Below are positions 21,994-23,780 of a stretch of 36,407 bases of DNA, piece by piece. The notes under the pieces are model-generated. The model did not search any database and was not told the origin of the DNA. It saw only the letters and a program-made list of their open reading frames with translations. Each line of letters begins with the position of its first letter. Positions within the stretch are counted from its first letter, which is position 1. A program made the position numbers and the translations under genes. The DNA is taken from contig JAITOL010000018.1 of the NCBI GenBank assembly GCA_031289955.1, positions 1-36,407 on the forward strand. The letters run 5' to 3'. The stretch comes from Synergistaceae bacterium. Lineage in GTDB: Bacteria; Synergistota; Synergistia; Synergistales; Synergistaceae.

Positions 21994-23379
21994 TTAGAAT
22001 TTCAGGTCGTATTTTGCCGGGTCGAGCTTGTCGCAGTCGTCCGCGACGTCCTCGATCAGTTCCTCTACGGTTCCGGGGAGAGCGCCGACGGAGTCGATCA
22101 GTTTATTGAGCCAGTCTTTCTCTTTGTCGTTGATGCGGAGTTTGCCATCTTTGACGGCCTTCGCCATGGAGGCCAACGCTAGTTCGGCGGCTTTTTTAAC
22201 GCGGTTGTAATGCCCGGTCTCGGCGACTATGCCCTTTGATATTTCCAGAACCACGTCCGGGCGGAGAACCCAGGCGTGCGGGTCGAGGCAGCTGTCCGAA
22301 TCGGCGTGGAGGTCGCGGATCAGCAGGGCGGTTTCTTTGCCCTTTGCCTTCGCTTCGTTCATCAGGCGGCAGTCGTACGCCAACAGTTCGAAATACGCGA
22401 CGGGCGCTATGCCGCTCAATAAATTTACATTCTGCACGGATTCGTTGGACCACAGATCGGCCACGCATATCGCCACGTTTCCGCACGAGCTCAAATGTGC
22501 GCATGAGGCGGCCCGTCCCTCCATGGATATCGGGTTGCCGGTTATCGCCTTGATGTAGGGCCCCTCGTAGCCGCAGTCTTTGTCGGGGCCGACCGCGCCG
22601 TTCTCCATAGCTACGAGGCTGCGAACCGCGCACATGACGCGATCCGTCGCCGCGAAAACGCGCGGGATGTAATTTTTTTCAGCAAGAACCATCGCTGTGT
22701 TGGCAAGCCCGCAGGCAGTGTCTCCCGCCGCTATGGTCCCGTGTTTGTCCGCGATATTGCTGATCGCGGTCCATATTACCTCCATGTCCCGGCAGCCCAG
22801 CACGGACAGCGCGAAAACAGCTTTTTTGACGTCGCAGAACATAAGGGCGTCGTCGTGAACTTCTTTGCCGCCTATCGTCTCGATGGCGAGAAGATCCGCG
22901 CCAGCCTTCGCGCTGCCCTCGAATACCTCCATCGTCTCGTCCCAGCGGTTGCCGCGCCACATATGGACGAGTCCCTCGCCCTCGCGGTTGTCGTTGGGGG
23001 TGATCCGGACCGCGCCTTTGATCCCGAGTTTCGCCTCGTGCTCTTTGATTATATCGACCACGACTTTGCAGACCTCTATTCCCCATTTCGGATTAAACGT
23101 CATATCCGGGAGGGTTTCGATCTCGGCGACAAACCCTGGACATTCAAGTTCGTGCGCCCGCACGCATGTTTTTGTGATTATCTCCCTGTAGTTTTCTATC
23201 GCCTCCGGCCAGGTCGAATCGTTCAGCGACATCGTGGGCAGCGTGAAATTCAACTCCGGATACATCGTGCCACCGCCTATGACCATCCCGTTTTTCAGCG
23301 TCACCGGGTTTTTCGCCGTGCCGAAGATAAAATCGTCGATATCTGTGTAAGCTGTGGTGTGAAACTCTTTCTTTGCCAT
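21994..23379 (-). CDS. mtaB: Methanol:corrinoid methyltransferase MtaB-like
   Basis: Zinc enzyme that activates methanol and transfers its methyl group to the Co(I) corrinoid of MtaC. The product has 461 residues, essentially the same as the Methanosarcina MtaB. Zinc ligands are conserved: Glu167 in LAIETIGGKE, Cys223 in AAGDTACGLANTAM and Cys269 in GPDKDCGYE (Glu164/Cys220/Cys269 in M. barkeri, from memory). ATG 23379 follows GGAGG by ten bases. Upstream on the same strand lies a cobalamin riboswitch with a transcription terminator. No mtaC (corrinoid protein), mtaA or reactivase gene is within the window, which is unusual because mtaB and mtaC are normally adjacent. A related substrate instead of methanol cannot be excluded. 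Confidence 0.93.
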   Translation of the reverse strand: MAKKEFHTTAYTDIDDFIFGTAKNPVTLKNGMVIGGGTMYPELNFTLPTMSLNDSTWPEAIENYREIITKTCVRAHELECPGFVAEIETLPDMTFNPKWGIEVCKVVVDIIKEHEAKLGIKGAVRITPNDNREGEGLVHMWRGNRWDETMEVFEGSAKAGADLLAIETIGGKEVHDDALMFCDVKKAVFALSVLGCRDMEVIWTAISNIADKHGTIAAGDTACGLANTAMVLAEKNYIPRVFAATDRVMCAVRSLVAMENGAVGPDKDCGYEGPYIKAITGNPISMEGRAASCAHLSSCGNVAICVADLWSNESVQNVNLLSGIAPVAYFELLAYDCRLMNEAKAKGKETALLIRDLHADSDSCLDPHAWVLRPDVVLEISKGIVAETGHYNRVKKAAELALASMAKAVKDGKLRINDKEKDWLNKLIDSVGALPGTVEELIEDVADDCDKLDPAKYDLKF

Positions 23380-23460
23380 GTACAAAGTTCCTCCTCTATA
23401 TTGTGTTGAAATTCGGAAGCCATGCGGCTTCCGGTGCTGCGCCGGTGAATTCGGGGGAAT

Positions 23461-23491
23461 AAAAAAAAGACCTCCATATACACAGAGGCCT
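23461..23491 (-). terminator. Riboswitch expression platform: intrinsic terminator before mtaB
   Basis: On the minus strand an eight-bp stem (AGGCCTCT with GGAGGTCT, two G-U pairs) is followed by eight Ts. It sits between the aptamer and the mtaB ribosome binding site, as expected for transcriptional attenuation. The 3' strand of aptamer P1 (GAGGGCT) is nearly complementary to AGGCCTC of the terminator, so a mutually exclusive antiterminator is possible. A second hairpin (GGAAGCC-GCAT-GGCTTCC, about 23415-23432) lies closer to the start codon. Confidence 0.8.
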
Positions 23492-23552
23492 TCGCTTATT
23501 TGCGTACGACAAAGTGCGATAACACACAGAGGCGTAACAAGACAAATATACA

Positions 23553-23742
23553 GCCCTCGCTAAAAGCATCCGGTTGGGTTTCCTGACTTTCGTTCACCCT
23601 ACTCCCGCGCCTTCCCAGCTCCCTTGACAGGAGCCAGTGACATTATGCGGTTTCGTCCCGATTACAGTAGCGGGGCTGTTCTGGTTTCGCACCAGATTCC
23701 ACACGCCGGAACTTTGACGCTATTCAATTTTTTTAGCCGGGC
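23553..23742 (-). ncRNA. Cobalamin (B12) riboswitch aptamer
   Basis: Read on the minus strand, the conserved core elements appear in order: GGAATCTGGTGCGAAACCAG, CAGCCCCGCTACTGTAA, GTCACTG, GGGAAGGC and AGTCAGGAAACC. The P1 helix closes it: GCCC-GCTAAAA (23731-23742) pairs with TTTTAGC-GGGC (23553-23565). The element is about 190 bases, the normal size. It lies about 170 bases upstream of mtaB in the same orientation and ahead of an intrinsic terminator, so coenzyme B12 or a related corrinoid should control mtaB transcription. Confidence 0.95.
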
Positions 23743-23771
23743 GAATTTCTCCAGCCCCGCATATCGGAGCA

Positions 23772-23780
23772 ATTATATCA
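23772..23780 (-). promoter_or_regulatory. Extended -10 promoter of the riboswitch-mtaB unit
   Basis: On the minus strand TGATATAAT is a perfect extended -10 (TGnTATAAT). No good -35 is present, which extended -10 promoters tolerate. Transcription would start about 20-25 bases before the aptamer P1 helix. Confidence 0.6.

Follow-up and report, generated by a model that had tools for sequence, protein, structure and literature searches.

A cobalamin riboswitch that terminates transcription probably represses, in cis and when corrinoid is ample, a duplicated and putatively functional gene for methanol:corrinoid methyltransferase (mtaB) in a Synergistaceae bacterium. The gene lies in a window of 36,407 nt (the whole stretch of DNA that was analysed), where positions 23780-21994 of the minus strand carry, in transcription order, an extended -10 promoter, the aptamer, a terminator and intact mtaB (Table 1). 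We infer the ligand, the repressing sign and the physiological reason of this switch, and it is uncommon for a gene whose product uses corrinoid to be under an OFF switch. With rather less than even confidence, we suggest that the genus repeatedly recruited cobalamin riboswitches to methanol methyl transfer, that the spare mtaB serves as an isozyme for corrinoid shortage, and that corrinoid-dependent methyltransferases form an undescribed class of targets.

Table 1. Features of the mtaB leader and gene in the window, and related loci in two other species
Feature	Position	Strand	Evidence
Extended -10 promoter element TGATATAAT	23772..23780	-	sequence
Cobalamin riboswitch aptamer with closing helix UCCGG/CCGGA	23569..23710	-	RF00174, sequence, conserved columns
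P13 hairpin UAGC[GAGG]GCUG	23551..23562	-	sequence, comparison with riboswitches of the genus
Intrinsic terminator, 12-pair stem (23493-23466) and T8, -13.6 kcal/mol	23461..23493	-	terminator scan
Hairpin CGGAAGCC-GCAU-GGCUUCCG without T run, between terminator and mtaB	23414..23433	-	sequence
Ribosome-binding site GAGGAGG (strong)	23390..23396	-	sequence
mtaB, methanol:corrinoid methyltransferase, 461 aa, ATG at 23379, single-gene unit	21994..23379	-	Pfam PF12176
Riboswitch before PocR/AraC-mtaC-metA-reactivase genes	L135 9615-8075; L136 11718-10166	-	sequence

The original prediction of a complete B12 aptamer, followed on the same strand by a terminator and mtaB, was borne out. In the covariance-model search, RF00174 matches positions 23700-23578 of the minus strand, inside the region where the aptamer had been placed, with 82.6 bits (E 4.5e-19; gathering score 31.5 bits). 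The match is local (model positions 47-167), in our opinion because P1 and P2 are short, and the outer helix, UCCGG at 23710-23706 with CCGGA at 23573-23569, closes by sequence. When 16 riboswitches from the genus are aligned, the aptamer retains all invariant columns, and in P5 it has an A-U pair where the others have G-C, a compensatory change. Both features argue that the aptamer is a genuine structure and exclude a chance match. It is an ordinary member of RF00174 and, going by the order of its expression platform, its ligand is most likely adenosylcobamide.

Transcription would be expected to start near position 23765. The TGATATAAT promoter has no good -35 match and was not flagged by the consensus promoter scan. 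Since the gene upstream is a divergent neighbour, mtaB appears as a one-gene unit, and no second promoter was predicted for it on the same strand between the terminator and the gene; the same holds for the orphan mtaB of a related genome, G008. The 480-nt leader contains two terminator-like sites compared with 0.5 in shuffled sequences. Near its 5′ end, GCGGGGCTG (23760-23752, minus strand) perfectly complements 9 nt of the L5 region, CAGCCCCGC (23678-23670, minus strand). This complement was equalled in 56 of 5000 shuffled leaders, and the pairing could act as a competitor of the aptamer fold.

The gene product matches Pfam PF12176 with 533 bits, which agrees with the earlier claim that the riboswitch precedes a corrinoid-using enzyme. 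Its only relative in the PDB is Methanosarcina barkeri MtaB (2i2x), and the zinc ligands of that structure, E164, C220 and C269, are retained as E167, C223 and C269. The methanogen equivalog model NF040651 gives 399.5 bits, below its cut-off of 720 bits, which was made for methanogen MtaB; such a score is expected of a bacterial form. Comparison of the window copy with the orphan mtaB of G008 gave a dN/dS of about 0.07; the estimate is weakened by saturated dS and points to purifying selection. The best explanation of the window mtaB is a duplicated, still functional copy.

The original prediction also held that the partner genes of mtaB are missing. They are absent from the window, and a search of the host assembly (2.65 Mb, 219 contigs, 96% complete) located most of them elsewhere. 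Contig C67 carries a second mtaB, 80% identical to the window copy, together with the only B12-binding_2 corrinoid protein of the genome and two RACo reactivases. It further encodes a CobW-type GTPase, a PocR/AraC regulator, metA, a homocysteine methyltransferase-type protein and a CODH/ACS cluster. For MtaA the search returned a single weak MtaA/CmuA-like protein on contig C40, so that MtaA is the one doubtful partner of the putative methanol system. An mtaB orphaned from all its partners was therefore rejected: judging from the gene content of C67, the window copy is an orphan only locally. The mta clusters of acetogens such as Sporomusa likewise combine MtaB and a corrinoid protein for methanol use beside the Wood-Ljungdahl pathway (PMC12456013). 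The cobalamin riboswitches reported in Sporomusa sphaeroides belong to genes of B12 biosynthesis and transport, while mta is probably under the control of MtaR (PMC12456013).

Two further observations concern C67. The acetyl-CoA synthase beta subunit is fused there to a CdhD-type corrinoid Fe-S protein subunit (L013 2917-6369, 1151 aa), and the fused gene is part of the CODH/ACS cluster beside mtaB; methanol-fed acetogenesis may thus be possible in Synergistaceae. In addition, metA and a stand-alone homocysteine S-methyltransferase (L013 10143-12259, L014 5892-9038) adjoin mtaB and the corrinoid protein, hinting at a methyl flow from methanol to methionine.

The nearest named relatives of the host are Synergistaceae MAGs of one genus. 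We take this to be a termite-gut genus, the isolate codes of the relatives being in agreement with a published termite-gut survey. MtaB is found in 8 of 188 Synergistota genomes, from two genera. Among 11 genomes of the host genus, 64 RF00174 matches lie above the gathering score, and the host genome has 8. Most known targets are genes of B12 synthesis, B12 uptake or the B12-independent nrdD. The first downstream genes include cbiC-cbiK, BtuF-type transport, TonB-linked and surface proteins, and the anaerobic, B12-independent nrdD. Such genes make up the classic repressed set; besides nrdD, the regulon of the window switch includes B12 import and cobalt chelation.

Four of the 64 riboswitches precede methanol genes. 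Two stand before orphan mtaB genes, in the window and in G008, where the riboswitch (contig C43, L021/L137) lies about 400 nt upstream of the gene; a survey of riboswitch-mtaB pairs in related genomes had been proposed with the original prediction, and G008 is the second such orphan. The other two belong to clusters in two other species (G004, contig C285, and G002, contig C20). There a PocR/AraC gene, with the riboswitch 250-350 nt upstream, heads a line of genes for mtaC, metA and an AcsV-type reactivase, and mtaB lies beyond them. Riboswitch control of these clusters is less certain because a second promoter, TGATATATT, is possible directly before pocR in both. Their mechanism may also differ from that of the window leader, since a T run directly follows the P13 hairpin in both leaders. 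In L135 (9615-8075, minus strand), 10 nt located about 70 nt downstream are perfectly complementary to the 3′ side of P13. Most cluster copies of mtaB are without such a riboswitch, and at the mta clusters that seemingly lack one no degenerate riboswitch was found, even at E up to 1.

In the phylogenetic tree, a 99/98 branch separates the two orphan mtaB genes from all eight copies in clusters, which argues that the orphan paralog is old. The riboswitches of the two orphans are not nearest to one another. The window riboswitch is most similar to those of contigs C17 (85%) and C161 (82%) of its own genome, and over 349 nt, a span that includes the terminator, the leader of the G008 mtaB shares 84.5% identity with that on contig C24 of G008. 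Those of G004 and G002 are homologous (78% identical). A single inherited riboswitch-mtaB unit is thus unsupported, the window riboswitch being nearest to those of its own genome and that of G008 being a copy of a G008 leader. Because the leaders differ, riboswitch and methanol genes were probably brought together on two or three separate occasions; caution about these origins is advisable, as aptamers this short give poor resolution and gene conversion may homogenise them. G008 has 14 riboswitches above the cut-off, and its leader of about 350 nt (aptamer, terminator and second hairpin) is duplicated before unrelated genes (C43 and C24), as if leaders were spreading as cassettes in this genome.

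The arrangement of P13 and the terminator may provide some clues regarding the direction of control. The expected kissing partner of the P13 loop (L13), GAGG, is CCCCG in L5, near 23676-23672. GAGG permits two or three L5 pairs only, and hence a short kiss; GCGG is commoner, and GNGG-type loops occupy the P13 position in about half of the parsed riboswitches of the genus. In a repressing corrinoid riboswitch, as Procknow et al. showed, the kissing loop stabilises P13 and a separate terminator is thereby free to form (PMC10653944). The repressing, transcriptional RF00174 riboswitch of Priestia megaterium metE (PMC10653944) has its aptamer core, L5, P13 and separate downstream terminator ordered as in the window leader. 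In contrast to that type, the window target is a corrinoid-using methanol methyltransferase and not a gene of B12 synthesis, uptake or a B12-independent isozyme. In the window, P13 and the terminator do not overlap, with about 58 nt between them, and the order of P13 and then terminator is shared with the cbiC/cbiK riboswitches of the genus. For these reasons the window switch is most likely repressing (OFF) and would raise MtaB under corrinoid shortage. The original prediction regarded such logic as paradoxical. It is indeed odd, yet it has a parallel, because a cobalamin riboswitch before the corrinoid-dependent enzyme gene mutA of Veillonella parvula represses a reporter (PMC9600662). The enzyme there is methylmalonyl-CoA mutase, which uses adenosylcobamide itself, whereas the window enzyme is a methyltransferase.

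According to the repressing model, ample adenosylated corrinoid would bind the aptamer, L5 would kiss L13 and P13 would be stabilised; the terminator would then form and mtaB would stay untranscribed. When corrinoid is scarce, RNA polymerase would read through into mtaB, and MtaB would join the corrinoid protein and the reactivase, whose genes lie elsewhere, on C67. Extra MtaB may serve to sustain methanol methyl transfer despite little charged carrier. Alternatively, methanol use may be turned on when adenosylcobamide-dependent pathways idle. Neither MtaB nor MtaC uses adenosylcobamide, which would then report that adenosylcobamide-dependent catabolism is able to run instead.

An ON riboswitch, in which corrinoid binding blocks termination and production of the corrinoid-using enzyme is thereby limited to times when its cofactor is present, was among the options of the original prediction. 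It is physiologically simple, and the OFF model is without a clear antiterminator: among the candidates, which pair a P13 or aptamer strand with the 5′ arm of the terminator, the best duplex (-10.1 kcal/mol) was equalled in 37 of 100 shuffles, and none stands out. Thermodynamic folding of the leader did not discriminate ON from OFF, the terminator being predicted to form whether L13 is free or not. However, in the sole activating corrinoid riboswitch known, that of A. halodurans cobT, P13 overlaps and excludes the terminator (PMC10653944) and so works as an antiterminator. The separation of the two elements in the window disfavours an ON switch of this known kind, and the layout agrees instead with riboswitches of cobalamin-synthesis genes of the same genus, so that we consider activation by corrinoid unlikely.

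Similarly unlikely is a main role of the RNA in trans, or as a small RNA ending at the terminator, with mtaB incidental or reached by read-through. There are precedents for such action: EutX/Rli55 and the antisense riboswitch of Listeria pocR are noncoding RNAs with positive control (PMC5821096, PMC9943018) and, as they sequester EutV or oppose pocR, favour pathways that depend on B12. Riboswitches of the genus also precede an ANTAR regulator-eutA locus and PocR-type genes. EutX/Rli55 and the Listeria RNA are likewise B12 riboswitches tied to B12-dependent catabolism. The window riboswitch, in contrast, is a sense leader that precedes mtaB, for which no further promoter was predicted, and neither an ANTAR-type double hairpin nor an antisense target was identified at the window locus. 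Finally, a wandering leader may have landed before mtaB by chance, with no selected function. Leaders do get copied within these genomes, as the C24 copy in G008 illustrates, and the two orphan mtaB copies have no synteny in common. Against this, the four methanol links come from at least two leader lineages, compared with a crude expectation of about 0.05 links that assumes about 1500 transcription units per genome, and the terminator, ribosome-binding site and enzyme are all intact. Mere chance is thus an improbable account, and repression in cis remains the reading we prefer.

A widespread pairing was rejected: outside the host genome, a cobalamin riboswitch was found in the retrieved flanks of only 1 of 80 mtaB loci, and that locus belongs to the same genus; RF00174 was run on 40 of these loci and a genus covariance model, built from Synergistaceae and so liable to miss remote forms, on all 80. 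None was found near the 72 mtaB loci of other phyla (RF00174 on part, the genus model on all). The regulatory link had been proposed as undescribed, and the open literature searched made no mention of a cobalamin riboswitch in front of mtaB. As far as tested, both the target and its repeated recruitment are new. Cobalamin riboswitches are commonly taught as feedback brakes on B12 synthesis, uptake and B12-free isozymes. If our reading is true, several species would have a brake on a B12-using pathway, derived from different leaders, and cells would be rationing the entry of methyl groups according to how much cofactor they have. Such rationing would be relevant to the turnover of methanol in the termite gut, and to acetogenesis that may be fed by methanol there. 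The window leader offers a simple case for measuring the sign of an unusual riboswitch by reporter.

Two other riboswitches of the genus deserve mention. In G001 (contig C319, 17129-17321, L148), one precedes genes for an ANTAR response regulator, a PdtaS-type kinase and eutA. This locus resembles the EutX/Rli55 setting of Firmicutes but occurs in a member of Synergistaceae; positive logic through noncoding RNA is possible at the pocR and eut loci, and no sign of it was seen at the window mtaB. In the host genome (contig C189, L016 10645-14785), another adjoins a divergent btuF riboswitch and heads a set of genes that includes a 2-hydroxyglutaryl-CoA dehydratase D-type protein and an apparent ASKHA activator.
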